From NCBI GenBank assembly GCA_000310025.1, contig FN648484.1, forward strand, positions 136,422 through 200,421: a stretch of 64,000 nt of DNA. The letters are read 5' to 3'. Made by a program: the position numbers and the translations under genes. The notes under the pieces were generated by a model. The model had not been told where the DNA came from, did not search any database, and saw only the letters and a program-made list of their open reading frames with translations. Shown here piece after piece: positions 47,226-59,783 of the stretch. How positions within the stretch are numbered: the stretch's first letter is position 1; each line of letters starts with the position of its first letter. Source of the stretch: Ectocarpus siliculosus. Taxonomy: Eukaryota; Sar; Phaeophyceae; Ectocarpales; Ectocarpaceae.

Positions 47226-47848
47226 NNNNNNNNNNNNNNNNNNNNNNNNNNNNNNNNNNNNNNNNNNNNNNNNNNNNNNNNNNNNNNNNNNNNNNNNNNN
47301 NNNNNNNNNNNNNNNNNNNNNNNNNNNNNNNNNNNNNNNNNNNNNNNNNNNNNNNNNNNNNNNNNNNNNNNNNNNNNNNNNNNNNNNNNNNNNNNNNNNN
47401 NNNNNNNNNNNNNNNNNNNNNNNNNNNNNNNNNNNNNNNNNNNNNNNNNNNNNNNNNNNNNNNNNNNNNNNNNNNNNNNNNNNNNNNNNNNNNNNNNNNN
47501 NNNNNNNNNNNNNNNNNNNNNNNNNNNNNNNNNNNNNNNNNNNNNNNNNNNNNNNNNNNNNNNNNNNNNNNNNNNNNNNNNNNNNNNNNNNNNNNNNNNN
47601 NNNNNNNNNNNNNNNNNNNNNNNNNNNNNNNNNNNNNNNNNNNNNNNNNNNNNNNNNNNNNNNNNNNNNNNNNNNNNNNNNNNNNNNNNNNNNNNNNNNN
47701 NNNNNNNNNNNNNNNNNNNNNNNNNNNNNNNNNNNNNNNNNNNNNNNNNNNNNNNNNNNNNNNNNNNNNNNNNNNNNNNNNNNNNNNNNNNNNNNNNNNN
47801 NNNNNNNNNNNNNNNNNNNNNNNNNNNNNNNNNNNNNNNNNNNNNNNN
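47226..47848. other. Assembly gap (623 N)
   Basis: Unknown bases. Any ORF drawn through them, such as minus-strand frames covering 47213-48361, is an artefact. Confidence 1.
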
Positions 47849-50040: not shown

Positions 50041-50883
50041 TGTCTACATATCGCAGAAATGCCATTGTTTGTGAGTCCCTATGCATAGTTGAACGAGTCG
50101 ATTGTTGACCATCACGAAAAAAATGCCCATGAATCAATTCACCAATATCAATTAGCAGCAGCGAGCGCGGCAACTCCATTTGTCTAGTTGATTACTCTGA
50201 ACAATGACAATGTTTTCCGACATGTAGAGTACGTTGAGAGTATGATAGCCGCATAGCGTGCAGTGTATATACCATAAACAGACAACAGTTGTCTGTATTA
50301 ACTACATGATGTTTAATTTGTTCGAGTGAAATCCTGATTTGAACCGTGTTTGCATTGGAGCACGTGTGACTGCTGGAATGCTTTTTCTGGTAAAGACCCC
50401 AAGGAGTTCTTTTAAAACCTACACTAGTTCGTGAAGTAGAATTCTTGCTGAATCTTTACAAATACCACACAGCAGTATCATATCCACGTTGTTCTCTATC
50501 TTGTGTTGGTCCAGACTGTTCCACTGCTTACTCAAGTATGCACAAATAGCGATCTTGCTGCCAGAACGATATCTACTCATTGTGCTGTCACGAGAAATAC
50601 TTCACGACTGTAAGACCTCAAGATCACGCCGTAAACGACAAAAAACGCCAGCGGACTGACCACTATTTTTTTTTTCTCACAACCTCGGTGGCCGATTTGG
50701 TCTAAATCAATCTCTGCCACTCACGTGACAGTCCCGTGAATGACCTACAAGATAAACGAAAATGTATGATTCCTACACTAAACTCAAGTAAAGCCCCTTG
50801 CCAACATCTACCGCATAAAGAATCTGAATTTTCGGCCATCTGGTGGCGTTTCGGGCCACTTTTAGTGGTGAAGAATGATTTTG
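50041..50883. other. Intergenic, nothing recognised
   Basis: AT-rich sequence without convincing exons, RNA genes or repeats. Confidence 0.4.
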
Positions 50884-50946
50884 AGGTTGGGTTTTTTAGG
50901 TTGGGTTTTCCCCATAACCCAACCTGAAAACCCGACCTCAAACTAA
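50884..50946. repeat. Palindrome built from the CCAACCTGAAAAC motif
   Basis: gaggttgggttttttaggtt and gggttttcccc are followed by ataacccaacctgaaaaccc and gacctcaaac. The right half is the inverted complement of the left, a hairpin of about 28 bp per arm. The unit is the one found about 25 times in the intron minisatellite at 52668-52998. A further single copy lies near 51090-51105. Confidence 0.8.
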
Positions 50947-51348
50947 TAATACTGCCTTTCCCTGACACCAAATCCTCGCAGCAGCCATCCAACTCATCAG
51001 CAAATCACTTGCAACTGCCACCGCCCACACTCGACCCCTCGACCACCCCACCTACTCCCTGGAAAGCAGTCACGGGGCACCTGTTACCTAAAAACCCAAC
51101 CTCAAAGTTTAAAGCTGGCTAAATCAATCTTCACGCCACCCATCTAACACATCATATCCCACCACCTCTTTCCATACCAACACTCAGACACACAAACTTT
51201 GTGACACCCACATTGCACTCATACACGTTGAATTTAACCCATCCATGTCTCACCAGGTAAAACATGGGCAGGAAAAGGGGGAGGCAGCGTGGCAAAAACA
51301 AGAAGCAGATGATGAGCAAGAAGGGGGGGAGGCAGCTCTGCAAAAAAC

Positions 51349-54300
51349 ATGAAGAACGTCCCGGCGACCCCGAAGCTTTGCGACAACAGCCGCGTGTACT
51401 TCACGACTAAGGGGGCGCAGTACATGGCGCTGGACGTCGGTGGCGGCGGTCTGTGTGCTCTTCTCGGCGTCATCGCTGTGGCGATGGACGACGTAGGAAC
51501 TCCTTGTGAGGAGATTTTCGAAGCCGTCAGCGGCGAGCTCACAGACGTCATGACGGAGTACGTCCAGTCCCTCCGAGCCAACATCGTCAGCACGTGCGGC
51601 GACCAGTTCGCCTTCAAGGACGGTGAAGAGCTGGCTAGCTTCGACGACATCGTCCACGACCCGATGTGGGTGATTGCGACGAGGGCGATGTGGGAGCTGG
51701 TGACACTTCATCCAACTGGATATCTCGACGGAAGGGCGGTGTGGCTGTTGGCGAAGTTCCTCGGGTTGCACGGATTTAGGATAGTCAAGCACGAAGACGG
51801 CCACTTGGTCTCATGTGATGCCGGGGGCCCCATCTCCTCCGAAGAGTGCCCCACGATGCTGCACGACGGCTACGGGCACTTCAAGGCCCTGATTCCACTT
51901 CGAAGAATGCCAGGTAAGTTTCGTCTGTTTTTAATTGTATGTGTGCGCGTACATGATATGATCCGTGATATTTTTGATTTGAATTTAAAAACATATTTGA
52001 AGTTCACACTGCTCACGTTTGGCCAACGCATGGTTTGTTTTGCCACCCCCCCTTCAGGAGTTCCAGATAAATCAAGAGTACCATTTGCTTCTCGAAGAGA
52101 GTTTCGTGGACGGCACCGATGAGGAGGAGGCCGTTCCGGGGACGTCGGATTTGGAGACTTCGGACGGCACCGACGAGGTCACTGAATCGGCTGTCGCGGT
52201 AGATGTAGCCGGCACGGAGGCGTCTGATGGTGGATCGATGCCGAGCGCCCAATCGTCTGATTCCGGTGGGGGCGACAGTGACCTGGGGGCACGTGGAGCG
52301 TTTGGCGAAGATGCTGAGGTGCGCCTTGTTCGTTAATTCTCCTTGTGTAAAATTCTCCATAAAAAATAGTCGTCTAGTGGTCCGAACCACCGCATCGTTG
52401 TTGACAGACAGCAGCCATAGCACTGAACATACAAATCCATGGTCTCATTTCGTTGATTGAAAAATAGGGAGAAGAGGTAAAAGCGGCTACCCGTGTGTCC
52501 AGCAAGAGGAGCCACCCATGGGACGACAACGAGTATTGGGATGACGACGCCAACTACTACTCGGGTTGCACCATAGTTGGCGAAGACGGGTGGACTCTCG
52601 TCGGCAAGGAAGGTCGGCGAATGGGGTTGGAGACAACCTTGGCCTTCGACGAAGTGAGTCCCTGATACCCCAACCTGAAATACCAACCTGAAATACCAAC
52701 CTGAAAACCAAACCTGAAAACCCAACCTGAAAACCCAACCTGAAAACCCAACCTGAAAGCCCAACCTGAAATACCAACCTGAAAACCCAACCTGAAAACC
52801 CAACCTGAAAACCCAACCTGAAATACCCACCTGAAATACCAACCTGAAAACCCAACCTGAAAACCCAACCTGAAATACCAACCTGAAAACCCAACCTGAA
52901 AACCCAACCTGAAAACCCAACCTGAAATACCAACCTGAAATACCAACCTGAAAACCCAACCTGAAAACCCAACCTGAAATACCAACCTGAAAACCCAATG
53001 CTTTTCGTGAACACAGGCCTCGGGTTTGTACGACCTCACCAGTCCGAACAAATGCCAGCCTTTGTTCCTAGACCACGATGACGAAACCGATGAGAACGAA
53101 GCAGCGGAGGTGGACGAGGCTGTGGACGAGGTGGGCGAAGATGAAGCCGCAGACGAGGTTGACGAGGACGAGGAGGCTGAGGCCGAGGCTGGAGAGGAGG
53201 TGCAGCAGACTATCGTCGTACACGAAGGAACCACGATTTCCCCCTGGATGCTGGCTTTCTTTCTGCCGCTTCTGCTCGCCGTTGGGGCCGCTCTTTTCCT
53301 GGTGTTTCAGGCAGCCGTGACCTCTACCACCGTACTCCTTCGCATCGGCGAGGCATTCGCGTCGGTCAGCAACAACGGCAGCAACTCTGCCAACAACAAC
53401 AAGTGCAGCTCTCGTCGGCGGCGTGCAGCTCGTCGTCGCAAGACTGGTCGCACGGGGATCGCGGGGATCGGCAGGATTCTGAAATGCAGATTTGCAGGAG
53501 GGAGACGCTTCCGTCCTGCAAGGAGTCGTCGCAACGGAAGAGGTTTCTGGGCACGTGGTCAGAGGAGGAGTGAAGGCGAGCTTCTTGTGATGGACGATGA
53601 TTCTGCACGCATCTTCGGAATGGTGCTGGCGTTTCTGCGGGGAGGAGCGAAGTCGGGTGACCAACAACAGGTGTGTGCGTGTACCAGTTGATTTGTATTT
53701 TCATCACGCGACAAAACGGCAAGTCAAACAAGACACTTAATTTCTCCGAATGCTTGCTTGGTCGTTCCATCCCCGTCGTCCCATCCTTATCCTTTCTCGC
53801 AGACACAGGGGAGGCCAAAAAGGGACAGGCGTCCAGCAGGGGGGGTATTTGCCCCCGGTTGGGCACCCGATCCTGCCCCAAACGCGCGCAACGACAGCGC
53901 GAGAGAGTCCGAGGAGGATGGTGAAGATAGTGAAGACTCCGGGGATGCAGATGATGCCGCGTCTCTGGATGGAGTCAGCGATGGCAAAGAGTCTGAAGAA
54001 GATGAAGAGGACTCCGATGAAGACTCCGGTAAAGGACCTCGTGGTGCTGGTGGGGGAGCGGGTGGTGTGGCGTCAGCGGGTGATAAAAACTCCGATTTAG
54101 AGGACTCCGGGTATGCTCCCAGCGAGGCCGGCGACACCGATGGAGACAACGACGAAGATACCACCAGCGACGAGTGTTCCTCCACCGGCGGGGAAACTCG
54201 CTGCGAGGGGTGCGAAGAAGACTTCTATTGTGAACTGGTGGAGTGCCCCACGTACAATGCGCAGTATTGTCAGGACTGCGAGAACGACTTGTCTTCTGAC

Positions 54301-57300
54301 AAAGAGGTGAGCTGAACTCGTGGTAGTAATGAGCAGGTGAGGGCCGAAACCAAACTATATGCGCACAAAAGCTTCAAAGAAAACCCCGACCAAGCTTGTT
54401 TTTTCCTGTTTTGTTTTTCCTTGTTTTTTCACCGAACCACAGCGAACGTGTTCTAGGTGTCAGCGAGCGGACGATGATGGTGTTGGTGATTTTTCGACTG
54501 GGGGGGTCACCGATGGACCGGATGAGTACACCGACACAGAAAGTGGTAGCGTCTCTGGAAACTCCAAGCGACGTCGTCGATCTGCGGGGAAGAAAGATAA
54601 TTGCATTCCAAGAACTTCTAGCCCGAGAGAGTTGTTGATGGTGCCTAAAGACGACCAGCAGGCGAAACTTATGTTAAGTCTATACCGCAAAGCCCGCGAG
54701 ATGGAACGGAAACTTGCAGGAGAAAACAAGAGAATCAAGGAGGTAAGGAACCTCACCCTCCTCGACCTCACGGAAGCAGCAAGCTGCTTGGCCAAGGGCA
54801 GTCCCGTAAGAGAAGAGATCTGGCGGAAGTGCGAAAAGGAGAACTACGCCCTGTACGGTATCACCGTGCGTCGAGCCGGGCCAACCGGTGAGACGATTCC
54901 GGGGACCAAGGTTACATCAGACAAGGGTAGGCGGGGAGAGGTCGTGGAGGCAAAGATGGATGAAGGATACACCGTGTTCACCGTCGAGTGGTCGGAAGGC
55001 AAGAGCAACAGACGCAGCGCATATTCTACGGAGGACGTGCTTCGTACTCGCGATGATAACCAGGGCGTGGCGACACTTGAGGAGGCGAAGGAGAAAATGG
55101 GGGTGTTTCTACTTGCAACCTTGTGTGTTGTCAACGTCCAGGTTTACCGATTCATTACCAAGAACACCAAGTTGGAGACTGTGTCAGTGTCAAGTGAGAC
55201 ACGCCCCCTGTCCCGGGATATAAAAGTTGATATAATAAAAGGCCGGAATCACGCCTGGGAGGAGACGAAGAAAGCTCGTGCGGTGGACATGCTCATGGAC
55301 AATGAAGTCACGTTCTTGGACTCCTCTGTGGACAAAGGCTTGCGGGTGGAGATGGAAGAATCATCGTGCTTCGAAATGATGGGATTGATCAACGACGCCA
55401 GAGCTCACTTCACGGGTCTCGTGAGAAGCACGGAAGGTTTCCAAGACAAGCATCTAGCTTTCGTCAACCACTTTGTGAGGGGGGCGCAGGCGTCCTTTCG
55501 GCTGGGTCGACCCACCAACATGGCGTCGTCCATGATCCATCTTTCGGTGAACGAGCTTCCTCCCGGAGTCCAGGCCAAAACATTGAAGGAACAAGACACT
55601 CAGTTGTATCAACCCGGTGAGCCGACGTCTTTTGGCCTGGGGATGAGGTGTGTCTTGGCGAGGGCACGGGTGAAGGATTCAGAAGAGTTTGGTGACGGGG
55701 GATCTTCGACCTGCCAGTTTCTGATGAGGTATCCGTTGTACAGGCTTCTGGATCTTTCCCGGGCTGATAACCTTCCTCTGTGTCCGACAACGGAGCATTC
55801 GAATCATGTTTCACCAACACTTCGCCACAGAGATGCGTACAGTCAAGCGTTTTCTTCGCACAGTAAGCGGAAAGCGGATTTGGACGTGTTTGACATAATC
55901 AAGGGGGGATATCATTCTGTGTCGCAAGAGAAGCGGTCCGAAAAAAGTGTGATAGAGAATGAAAACGAGAGGATCGCATTTGGTGCGAAGTTCAATAAAG
56001 GCAGGACGCACTTGGTGGGAAGCGATGAATGTCTGCTAGGGTTTCTTTTACTTGAAGAACTCGTGTCTCGCAATGGGATAGACTCGTTCATGGAGAAGTT
56101 ACCCAACAAGGATGATATTGTCAAGATGTGCAATGAAGTACTTGAGATGAACCCACGCAAGCGCGAGAACGAGGATCATCTTTGTCCACCGAAGTTCAAA
56201 CTGAGGATTGAAGCGATCGTCGATGAACTGGTAGAAGGAAACAAGGTTACCAGATCGGATATTTCGTTGCTAAGTTGCTCTTTAACGGTGTTGGATTCTC
56301 TGCTTACCGCTGCCCTTCGAAAGCAAGACATTTTGGGACAGCTTGCAAAAGATTTGTACCGAATGAAGTGTAAGGACGTTCATGGCAACGACATTGCTAT
56401 TACCCGATGTCTTCTTCCCCGTTACTTCAAAAACAAGAAGGCACTCGAGAATTCCACATGTGGAGTAGTTGTGAACCATACAAAACATGAGAAGTGTGAG
56501 GGGGCGTATGCGGTTATGGCAGTCATTGGGAGGAAGGTGATGCGAAGGCTTCTTGAGAAGGAGGCGGAAAAGGACTTGGCAGAGCTCAGAAAGAAAGGGG
56601 GGTGTACCGAGAAAGACTTCGAGAGGGTGGCCGAGTCGTATTCTCTTACACCCCATTTGGGTCCCTTTGACGACAAAGGTCGTGTCTTCACACCCAGTCA
56701 AGTGACGGGTATGTACAAATGGTTGGGGCAGCGCACAATGGGCCTTTCGCATTTTGGCACTCACATCATCCGCAGTAATCACGCGACGGCGGTGGCGATG
56801 TACTGTGTGAGGACAGGGCTGTCGCACGATGACCAGGCGGTGAAGGATTTGTTTGCTTTGGCGAGACACGGTGATAAGCAGAGGATTCGGTTTTATACGA
56901 AAGTCAAAGGTAATACGCCAAATTCGTGTGATTTCCTGACTAATTTAAGTGGTGCCCTTCCCTCACTTCGTCGCCTCGGGGAGGGGGGGGGAGTCAAGAC
57001 TTCTGAGAAAAAGGTGGCGTCACTGAGTGATGTTGAAGTAGGTCTTTCGGGTCTCTTTGCCTTCGAGGATGCTGAGTTCGACAAATCCGGGGCGTTGGCA
57101 CGTGGGAAACCGGTGATGGGTGACGGGGCATATAGAAAGTTGGATGTGGTCGAGATGGATGATGAAGAGAAGGACTTGGTTAGGCAGGAGCGAAAGGCTA
57201 CCAGGAAAGCTAATATTGCGATTGAAGAAAAACGGAGAAAGAGGCCAAGACGGCCCTGTATGAAAATAAGGTGGACACCGGTGCGAAGTCGGGTGGTCGG

Positions 57301-57439
57301 AAGAAGGGGGGAGTTCGCGCTGACAAGCTTGAGTATCGCAAGAGTGCGTTTGCCAAAAAATTATCAGTTGGTTTTGAACGCAAGTAAGCTGAAAAGGTTG
57401 GAAAAGGGCAAGAAGCCCAAGCGGATGACGTTGGAGTAG
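51349..57439 (+). CDS. Composite tyrosine recombinase: OTU-like domain, TM segment, PHD-like finger, YR domain; probable Crypton-like element
   Basis: Exons with compatible phases: 51349-51913, 52077-52318, 52468-52653, 53017-53670, 53803-54306, 54443-57439 (about 1715 residues). The Met at 51349 is the first usable one in frame. Residues 1-190 resemble an OTU cysteine protease, with candidate Cys36 in GGLCALL and His177 in GYGHFKAL, but lack the usual DGNC. Exon 4 encodes an acidic run, a hydrophobic helix (about 404-438), then an Arg-rich stretch. A Cys8 PHD-like finger (from 683) spans the exon 5/6 junction: CEGC, then CQDC, then CSRC. The C-terminal half has tyrosine-recombinase boxes: Arg1343 in LLTAALRKQDIL, His1491-x-x-Arg1494 in THIIRS, His1526 in ARHGDK and Tyr1535 in FYTK. 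Such enzymes cut and rejoin DNA through the Tyr. There is no reverse transcriptase, so Crypton-like rather than DIRS-like. One product or several is unknown. The first donor/acceptor pair is the least certain. Confidence 0.85.
52668..52998. repeat. Intronic 13-bp minisatellite
   Basis: About 25 head-to-tail copies of ccaacctgaaaac or ccaacctgaaata fill the intron between the exons ending at 52653 and starting at 53017. Only two or three unit variants occur, in irregular order. Because 13 is not a multiple of 3 and stops are absent, the minus strand shows three long spurious repetitive ORFs here. Confidence 0.97.
57228..57232 (+). other. Possible one-base frameshift in the recombinase 3' end
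   Basis: In the A5 run the annotated frame continues with a strongly basic, unstructured sequence to 57439. The other frame, reached if the run were A6, continues as acidic/basic codon-like sequence (TEKEAKTALYENK, then RADKLEYRKSAFAKKL) to a TAA at 57385-57387. Either one base is missing here, through sequence error or mutation, or the annotated frame is genuine. Confidence 0.4.
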
Positions 57440-57440
57440 T

Positions 57441-57719
57441 TTGAAGAATGATCAAAAGACTGTTAGAGTTGCGTTCCACGACAACGTCAAGCGATTTTTA
57501 CACTCGGCGAATCCTGGGGAGAAGGACTTTTTGGATGGATTTTATTTGAATTTGATCGACGGGAAAAGTAGGCCCGGGAGTAAAGCAGTTGCTTACGCGA
57601 GGGAACATCGGATTGAGTGGAGTTACCACGATTGGTCTACTGGGAATGTTTGTGTTAGCGTACCACAGGAGAAAAAGGGTGGTAAGAAGAGGAAGTTGGT
57701 TGAGGAGGGGGAGGGTTAG
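57441..57719 (+). CDS. Small basic-tailed ORF after the recombinase, unknown function
   Basis: I do not recognise this ORF. It is open from TTG 57441 to TAG 57717-57719, in a third frame relative to the upstream gene, with the tail KKGGKKRKLVEEGEG, a nuclear-localisation-like basic cluster. Composition is protein-like (VRVAFHDNVKRFLHSANPG, RIEWSYHDWSTGNVCVSV). With no ATG near the start, it may be a downstream exon or frameshifted continuation of the recombinase rather than a separate gene. The polyadenylation signal at 57798 lies beyond it, which favours one transcript. Confidence 0.35.
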   Translation: MKNDQKTVRVAFHDNVKRFLHSANPGEKDFLDGFYLNLIDGKSRPGSKAVAYAREHRIEWSYHDWSTGNVCVSVPQEKKGGKKRKLVEEGEG

Positions 57720-57797
57720 TGATGGCGAGGACCGTTCTTTTACGTACGTTCAGGTTTGAAATTTAACCTGTGTTCCTTGGTCATTGTGACACAGCAC

Positions 57798-57803
57798 AAT
57801 AAA
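57798..57803 (+). terminator. Candidate polyadenylation signal for the recombinase transcript
   Basis: AATAAA lies 359 bases after the long ORF's stop and 79 bases after the small ORF's stop. No gene on the plus strand lies between. Confidence 0.45.
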
Positions 57804-59783
57804 GAAGAGTGCCAAACATTTTCAATTTCAGCTTTAATTCAAGTTTGAAACCAGTTCCGGGTGATACAGCAGTACTGCACGCACACGAATCCTTTTCTAA
57901 ATGGCGTTCTCGGCCCGCACGCAAAGTTCAGGTATAGGTGTATCGCCTGGCAAATATTGTGCACCTCGTTAGTGTTCGTTTGCCAGAAAGTGACGAGCTC
58001 GGCGTCGGAGATTTTTTTTTTTGTTTCTTGGTAGATCTCAACTTTACCCCACGTTCAATGCACCGCAAGACGTCTCTACCCCTTTCGTGGGCTACCTCTG
58101 CGCTGCCACCTCGGCCGCTACATATCAGTTCTCGCAGTTAGAACCCAAATCAATTGGTTCGCCCGCCTTAGTCTGCGTCTCCGGTTCAAACCGCAATGTA
58201 GGAACACACCTGTTGATAGAACGCGATGAGCGAGTGGGACAAAGAGAGGGCTACAAGGCACCCGCTCGGGCGGTGGGCGGTGGGTGCGGTGTGACTGAAT
58301 CCCACCCCAGTACCAGTACGGATCAGTATCAATCGTTTCCTTCGCTTCTAGACGTGGATCTCTCACAGCACCTGTCGCCTTTCCGACATTTGCAGCAGGT
58401 CCCACATAACCGTGCAGGTGAGTGAGCCCCCTTCTTGGTGTGAGTATGTTGACACGGGCTGATGGTCTGTCTATAAGGGAAGGACGTCGTTGAAAAATGG
58501 AGAGATGAAACACCGCGCATCTTAGTCAATTTTGTTGCGAGACTATGTTCAGTTCCCTCTTTGGGTAGCCTTCGTGTTGGGTGCCTGGGGTTTCATTGGA
58601 AACATCGATGCCTTGGGACGCGGAATATCCCATTTCGCGGGTGAGATTTGGTCATTAGCAGCACCGGTGTACACATGTATGTCACGGGGTTACGCGTAGA
58701 CAATCTCTTGAAGCCTGAAGACCCTTGTTGAAGACCCACTTGGTTTATTAATGCGGGCAGCAGCTTGTTGTAGCTCTCGCAGCGTGGATGGCATGGACCG
58801 AAGTATGGACCCGCAACAAAAAAATCAGCCGGCAGTACGAGTGGTGCTCACGTGCTCACACCTCATACCACAACTCGAATGGCTCTTCATTTGAAAGTTC
58901 AGCCGTTTAGGGCTTTTCCGGAAAAAAAATTGTCGTTAGGTACTACAGCAAGCCGTCGACGTAGCATACAGGAAGAAGGTGCGGGTGCTTGGGGCGCGGG
59001 GCTAGGCAGGTGTTTTGGGATTGCCTGCCCCGTCAACGCCAATCTACAGCAGATATCGCGTTGCGGGAAATAAGCTGTAGACTAGATCTATCTGAATAGT
59101 CCAGAATCTTAAAAGAGAGGAATAAATAAAAAAAGAGGGAGAATTATTTGTTCCTCAAGTCTCCCATAAGCTTGTATCGAACAACAAGGAGCACACACAT
59201 TGCGTTAGTTCCCTGCAGACGATTGTCGTCCACTTCACAACTCCACATCCCGTTCTTCTCCATTTTCAGACTGCCCGCCACACCATCCGGATTTCCATCG
59301 TAGAGAACTGCGGTGAGAATAGCTGTAGGGACCGCGTAATTAGCTGTGGGGACGGTTGCCTGACTTTCTTTTCGTATGATATGTGGCACAAACACCCTTT
59401 CGCGATGGCCAGGACAATGGGCTGGCTGCGTCTACTTCTCCGACGGAGTATAGTTGCCTTGGCCGCGTACCTCAGGGATTACGCAGCCAGCAGCCGCAGG
59501 CGAAAATGTCCGGTGTCGGGGCAAAATTTCAGGCATTTGGCTGATACCACCAGATCGCATGCTCTTCATGCTTGTTTGGATGCCTGACATGCCTAGCCTG
59601 GATAAGGTAACATATCTGCCACATGCCTGAGACTTGCCTGATATCTTCCCTCAACGGAAATTACACTCGTTAGTCCCCCGTTAGTCCAAGGGTCGGTTCG
59701 ATGATGTCGGGATCTGTGTGAACACACCACACACCACACACCAACCAACCAACCAACAAATAACATGTACAGGGCCGTTCTAG
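57804..59783. other. Intergenic, mostly non-coding
   Basis: No exon was convincingly recognised. A run of T (58010-58021) and an AATAAATAAA string (59121-59130) are present. A minus-strand open stretch at 59144-59395 is described separately. Confidence 0.4.
59144..59395 (-). CDS. Possible terminal exon or remnant, unknown product
   Basis: I do not recognise it. The minus-strand frame ends VRYKLMGDLRNK then a stop; upstream are VLYDGNPDGVAGSLKMEKNG and MWSCEVDDNRLQGTNAM, which look like genuine coding sequence with balanced composition. AG acceptors occur just upstream (ctacag and caccgcag on the minus strand). No further exons were linked, so it is either the last exon of a gene I could not trace or a fragment. 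Confidence 0.25.
   Translation of the reverse strand: MFVPHIIRKESQATVPTANYAVPTAILTAVLYDGNPDGVAGSLKMEKNGMWSCEVDDNRLQGTNAMCVLLVVRYKLMGDLRNK

Follow-up and report, generated by a model that had tools for sequence, protein, structure and literature searches.

In this study, we analyzed a 64,000-nucleotide window of the Ectocarpus siliculosus genome (C84:136422-200421, on a contig that terminates where the window terminates) in which a sequence-only reading had proposed a composite recombinase gene. We describe at this place one copy of a multicopy mobile element, on the forward strand, whose coding blocks specify, in this order and on one strand, an OTU-like cysteine-protease-like domain, a Cys-rich finger, and a tyrosine recombinase (YR). 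Positions 50699 to 51348 hold the 5' terminus (GGTCTAAATC...) and the leader. An inverted repeat (hairpin) lies there at about 50880 to 50942 and matches the equivalent site of other copies in inverted orientation. The six coding blocks that follow align with proteins predicted in other Ectocarpus strains: exon 1 (51349 to 51912) carries the OTU-like domain; exon 2 (52058 to 52318) is an acidic linker; exon 3 spans 52468 to 52653; exon 4 (53017 to 53670) holds an acidic linker, a membrane-like segment (53242 to 53307), and a basic stretch, a part of the exon being omitted by gene model P0013 and retained by P0014; exon 5 (53803 to 54306) combines an acidic linker with the start of the finger (from 54202); and exon 6 (54443 to 57439) contains the finger end (last Cys to 54460) and the YR. 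A conserved C-terminal tail extends over 57240 to 57719. Intron 3 contains a 13-bp tandem array (52661 to 52998; 26 copies of the unit CCTGAAAACCCAA), which resembles, inverted, positions 50879 to 50910 close to the left end. All named homologues come from brown algae, the closest being Ectocarpus, Pylaiella, and Laminaria proteins, with at least 14 and at least 19 matches in two protein searches (lower bounds, each search having scored about 8000 candidates). They include P0011, a Pylaiella gene model, and P0013 (Esi_0102_0084), which probably corresponds to the copy on contig C23 rather than to the window copy; P0001 is an open reading frame (ORF) 92% identical to the window gene.

The element is mobile: its copies share one left end behind flanks that differ, and in the window it has split a dispersed repeat. 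Searching 189 Mb of genome (C-numbers denote its contigs, C84 being the window copy), we found full 5' ends on C84, C23, C27, C25, and C16, whose first 650 bases are 89 to 99% identical behind five different flanks. Partial 5' ends on C112, C15, C19, and at C23:2.70 Mb bring the number of places found by DNA to nine, with C24 as a tenth, and the upstream flanks differ in all nine places displayed. The start is identical in the window (50699, GG...), C23, C25, and C16, and lies within about a base of it in C27; GG stands at the aligned first base in seven of the nine places (in C19 after a four-base extension of the alignment), with C27 having GT unless shifted by one base and C23:2.70 Mb showing no clear start. 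Window positions 50607 to 50698 are the left half of a dispersed repeat inside which the element was inserted. Uninterrupted copies of this repeat at C26:5011514, C24:3599084, and C23:600345 read CCGATTT-GG-AATTG (two of three) or CCGATTT-GA-TATTG (one of three) at the insertion point. We did not find the right half of the split repeat on the remainder of C84, and no clean empty site was obtained for the C25 5' flank against C274, where the match stops 4 bases before the junction and enters another repeat. An inverted copy of the 20-base 5' end (≤5 mismatches) was absent from the 11 stretches scanned. The dispersed copies with one fixed left end led us to reject an ordinary host gene, and the domesticated recombinase that had been offered as one option is unlikely, given copies that are 92 to 99% identical, have different 5' flanks, and are in several cases broken. 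A separate repeat of about 540 to 670 bases is inserted at C25:3375537-3376083 (just before exon 2) and C23:3478122-3478805 (near the gene end), and also occurs near the C27 and C16 copies.

The recombinase with all catalytic boxes that the sequence-only reading described is indeed present in exon 6: R626 is encoded at 56318 to 56320, the HxxR motif (H774 and R777) within 56762 to 56773, H809 at 56867 to 56869, and Y818 at 56894 to 56896. Among relatives, P0007, C11, and C15 have NxxR in place of HxxR, and P0008 has Q in place of H809; each aligned row that covers the second R and the Tyr retains them. Structure comparison of a model recovered the recombinase fold in the C-terminal half, with rows 1 to 33 of 50 being YR or TopoIB structures and XerH (5jjv) the best row. 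By sequence, the exon 6 protein matched no YR in the PDB (polycystin-2 and a ribosomal protein were returned, E 0.02 to 0.73) and had no match in phage records, and peptide patterns from P0001 had no relative in IMG/VR viral contigs or in prokaryote genomes.

Whether these domains belong to one protein bears directly on the proposed composite gene. Gene models P0013 and P0014 join the OTU-like domain to the finger and the first ∼100 codons of exon 6, P0005 begins where the OTU-like domain ends and P0011 where it starts, both reaching ∼55645, and in exon 6 a single frame stays open across the finger and the YR. Because the gene models and this open frame overlap in early exon 6, the OTU-like, finger, and YR blocks are likely fused in one gene. 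The point that weighs against such a fusion is that none of the gene models examined spans the OTU-like domain to the YR catalytic end, and for this reason we lowered our confidence in the preferred explanation slightly, from good to fairly good. The arrangement recurs in the genome: with the C24 OTU-like ORF as query, six of nine places (C24, C16, C84, C23, C25, and C11) lie upstream of a same-strand YR match; on OTU-bearing C27 an assembly gap cuts the copy before the YR, the C13 and C14 places have no YR match, and reading of C15 revealed a seventh OTU-YR arrangement. YR matches occur at a minimum of about 16 genome places. Between the window and C24, the ratio of nonsynonymous to synonymous substitution rates (dN/dS) is 0.16 for the OTU exon (dS 2.5, saturated) and 0.29 and 0.18 for two parts of exon 6, the latter being the YR part; this comparison covers the OTU exon and those two parts, exons 2 to 5 and the last part of exon 6 offering fewer than 15 comparable codons. 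The C24 YR part has two stops in the codon comparison, and none was counted inside the C24 homology match. Among young copies the ratio is noisy, from 0.10 to 1.60 by exon and pair with few changes, and does not demonstrate selection.

The window copy itself is damaged and, to judge from its reading frames, inactivated: the phase breaks between exons 1 and 2, a finger Cys is lost, and the C-terminus lies in other frames. The lengths of blocks 2 to 5 are divisible by three, so that their junctions are in phase; the junction of exons 1 and 2 (GT donor) is out of phase in the window and C27 and in phase in C23, C16, and C25. Thus, the single set of phase-compatible exons claimed for the window does not hold for this copy. 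Nor does the gene continue from 57439 to 57719 in the same frame, as the conserved C-terminus, which P0001 reads in one frame up to the equivalent of 57719, is scattered over other frames there. With gapped codons omitted, the compared codons of blocks 1 to 5 contain no stops in the window, C23, C25, or C16; one TGA inside the C25 OTU match falls among the omitted codons. In block 6, C16 has one stop (first part) and C23 two (YR part).

The N-terminal domain resembles an OTU-type cysteine peptidase at the level of motifs. Cys36 (51454 to 51456) and the Gly-His177-Phe motif (His at 51877 to 51879) are invariant in the window, C24, C11, C15, and C13, the latter four being 46, 27, 24, and 50% identical to the window, respectively. 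The C15 motif around the Cys, GRGDCWW, resembles what we take to be the OTU signature, namely, a DGxC-like Cys motif together with a C-terminal HY or HF His. Scans of the window proteins against Pfam, NCBIfam, and PHROGs returned neither an OTU nor a YR family (Pfam E≤1), and a PDB profile search with the OTU-like alignment gave one weak relevant match, the pseudo-deubiquitinase 6k6l (E 0.023), the motif of which is more like that of MINDY than that of OTU. An AlphaFold model built from four sequences was unusable (predicted local distance difference test score, 38.6). The OTU-like protease of the sequence-only reading is not confirmed beyond its Cys and GHF motifs: it lacks a Pfam OTU match, and its one relevant PDB match is weak; papain-fold deubiquitinase-like would be the safest name for the domain, with OTU as a motif-level assignment.

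The regions between this domain and the recombinase are more variable. The finger (54202 to 54460) is Cys rich; the PHD-like (C4HC3-type) pattern proposed by the sequence-only reading can be made out by eye only in the C11 and C15 relatives, whereas the window family appears Cys-only, and the window copy has Tyr at a finger position where P0005, P0013, and P0014 have Cys. Finger scores in Pfam stay below the cut-off (C15, PHD with E 0.11 and Prok-RING_1 with E 4e-4; C11, only LRRNT with E 1e-3). The single transmembrane segment is borne out in part, since one membrane-like segment exists at 53242 to 53307 but is not constant among the linkers of relatives. It is strong in the window family (mean hydropathy, 2.96 in P0014), and the C11 interval contains such a stretch (best mean hydropathy, 2.35); the linkers of P0011, P0020, P0010, the C24 linker ORF, and three C15 ORFs have no 19-residue stretch with a mean hydropathy of ≥1.6.

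On the right side, the 3' part of the element (57720 to 57933) runs to the edge of the block common to the window, C25, and C422, which are alike until 57932/57933 and then diverge; the C16 copy is interrupted at 57853. Beyond this edge, a tail (57934 to 59059) is common to the window and C23 only (97 to 99%) and may be a passenger or the true 3' part of this lineage; in C23 it carries two insertions, and a 100-N assembly gap stands at the equivalent of 59059. C25 and C422 have a different common tail (∼3.9 kb in C25 coordinates, ending at about C25:3385655), of which 1.1 kb, including tandem units of ∼355 bases, is missing from C422. This tail could be one segmental duplication, because these two places alone share it at length, C284 matching 235 bases. 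The window and C23 share the right flank and not the left, and therefore DNA past 57933 moved or was copied with the element, whose core is probably 50699 to 57933 with variable passenger DNA beyond. Elsewhere in the window, a run of 623 N occupies 47226 to 47848. Near the C24 copy, an ORF of 799 residues at C24:1305354-1307750 (L018:5354-7750) is oriented toward the YR gene and, judged by eye, resembles a tyrosine recombinase of another kind, the second at this place (phrog_1 integrase, E 0.05; no Pfam or PDB match); relatives occur at six places including itself, two of which (C24 and C11) lie less than 20 kb from an OTU-YR gene, both convergent. A DUF6940 ORF (L018:3711-4307; Pfam E 7e-33) adjoined by a 362-bp tandem array lies in the same C24 region.

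Taken together, these data are best explained, with fairly good confidence, by a brown-algal YR DNA transposon whose blocks form one gene, whose mobility is YR driven, and whose window copy is inactivated. We consider it a candidate for a new form of YR transposon, one in which the recombinase is fused to a protease-like domain. Past YR-mediated mobility, the mechanism we infer is one in which the YR, with R626, H774/R777, H809, and Y818, would excise the element as a circle and reinsert it through strand exchange at a core of two bases, GG. Guidance of the recombinase to DNA or chromatin may come from the finger and the basic linker, the N-terminal domain may be a protease or deubiquitinase that shields the recombinase or brings in repair while the element transposes, and the membrane-like segment could be an optional lineage-specific insert.

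Several other element classes have to be weighed against this explanation. Pfam recognized no reverse transcriptase, RNase H, DDE transposase, or viral gene in the exons and 10 further ORFs (seven from the window and three from the C25 tail). The large Crypton-like element with accessory functions that was first suggested comes close, in that the element is multicopy, mobile, and YR bearing, and neither an inverted 5' end nor a reverse transcriptase was found in the stretches and ORFs examined. We regard as rather unlikely, however, that it belongs to the Crypton superfamily or branches off close to it, as a CryptonS-like form with a peptidase fused to the YR. CryptonS elements of stramenopiles use a YR, in some of them an extra protein carries a C48 (Ulp1-related) peptidase (PMC3212892), and the absence of an inverted 5' end from the stretches scanned suits them; however, they have 5- to 6-bp terminal direct repeats and mostly TATGG termini (PMC3212892), and the present element starts with GGT.

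A further reading, which we consider improbable, makes the gene not the mobilizing enzyme but an accessory of one of the giant DDE transposons (KDZ, EnSpm, or Sola-1) of Ectocarpus. Giant elements with additional genes are reported in this genome, for which 51 "DNA/Unknown" families are listed (PMC12477816), and tails differ among copies, but no DDE transposase was recognized in the ORFs tested, the 5' end has no inverted counterpart in the 11 stretches, and the gene lies 650 bp from a fixed left end and carries the YR catalytic set itself. That this DNA belongs to an endogenous giant virus or a virus-like element akin to the phaeoviruses, with their YR and CC insertion, is quite improbable: phaeoviral elements insert at CC, which is GG on the other strand, the phaeoviral YR was aligned by its authors to XerH 5jjv (PMC13236599), which is also our best structural row, and the DUF6940 ORF lies close to the C24 copy, yet no viral gene was recognized in the ORFs tested and the P0001 patterns lack relatives in IMG/VR. 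The least probable reading is a YR retrotransposon (DIRS, Ngaro, or PAT) whose reverse transcriptase was lost or lies outside the DNA examined; Ngaro and PAT-like elements are common in the Ectocarpus genome (PMC12477816), but neither a reverse transcriptase nor RNase H was recognized in the exons and the 10 further ORFs. In the main text of that 2025 paper on Ectocarpus transposable elements, the DIRS elements (Ngaro and PAT-like) are the sole named YR elements and Crypton does not appear (PMC12477816), and the 51 "DNA/Unknown" families could include the family described here. The Ectocarpus ALOG DIRS-like element, which has a reverse transcriptase and an ALOG domain, is taken to be a different element.

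In the literature searched, with most subscription journals, preprints, and Repbase outside the search, a protease-like domain, finger, and YR in one element are undescribed, the Ginger paper being closest. Ubiquitin-pathway domains in transposons are reported there for the DDE element Ginger1 and some animal Helitrons (PMC2836005), and a YR element with a deubiquitinase-like domain would tie a further transposase class to this pathway and make protease help in transposition testable. Ginger1 resembles our element in that its transposase is fused to a protease domain of the OTU or Ulp1 type, once with a PHD finger, but it uses a DDE integrase, is bounded by terminal inverted repeats, and bears its extra domains at the C-terminus (PMC2836005), whereas here a YR follows an N-terminal protease-like domain; a Ginger1-type DDE integrase gave no Pfam match (E≤1) in seven ORFs of the gene. 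CryptonS and oomycete CryptonF share with our element a YR, stramenopile hosts, and sometimes a cysteine peptidase of the ubiquitin/SUMO kind (PMC3212892), yet their C48 peptidase resides in an additional protein, whereas here one exon set holds the OTU-like block N-terminal to the finger and the YR, and the termini differ so far as known, only the left end being defined here.

More tentatively, and as a doubtful rather than a favored proposal, these copies may represent a brown-algal class of YR elements in which a deubiquitinase-like protease and a finger that reads chromatin are fused to the recombinase, the left end is fixed, the passenger DNA on the right varies, and integration is at GG/CC like that of phaeoviruses of the same hosts; the C24 and C11 families perhaps carry another recombinase gene as well. 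If true, stramenopiles would have their own counterpart of the Starships of fungi, and the integration habit of phaeoviruses might stem from such elements. Starships are giant elements with the recombinase gene at the left end and a variable tail, a layout that our element resembles in addition to using a YR; unlike them, it has no verified cargo, and DUF3435, which we take to be the Starship captain family, is absent among the Pfam matches (E≤1). The phaeoviral integrase is alike, by its description, in combining a YR with a two-base CC/GG site (PMC13236599) and unlike in that no viral genome was recognized around the present element, and a GG/CC site common to both would offer a clue to the acquisition of integration by giant viruses.
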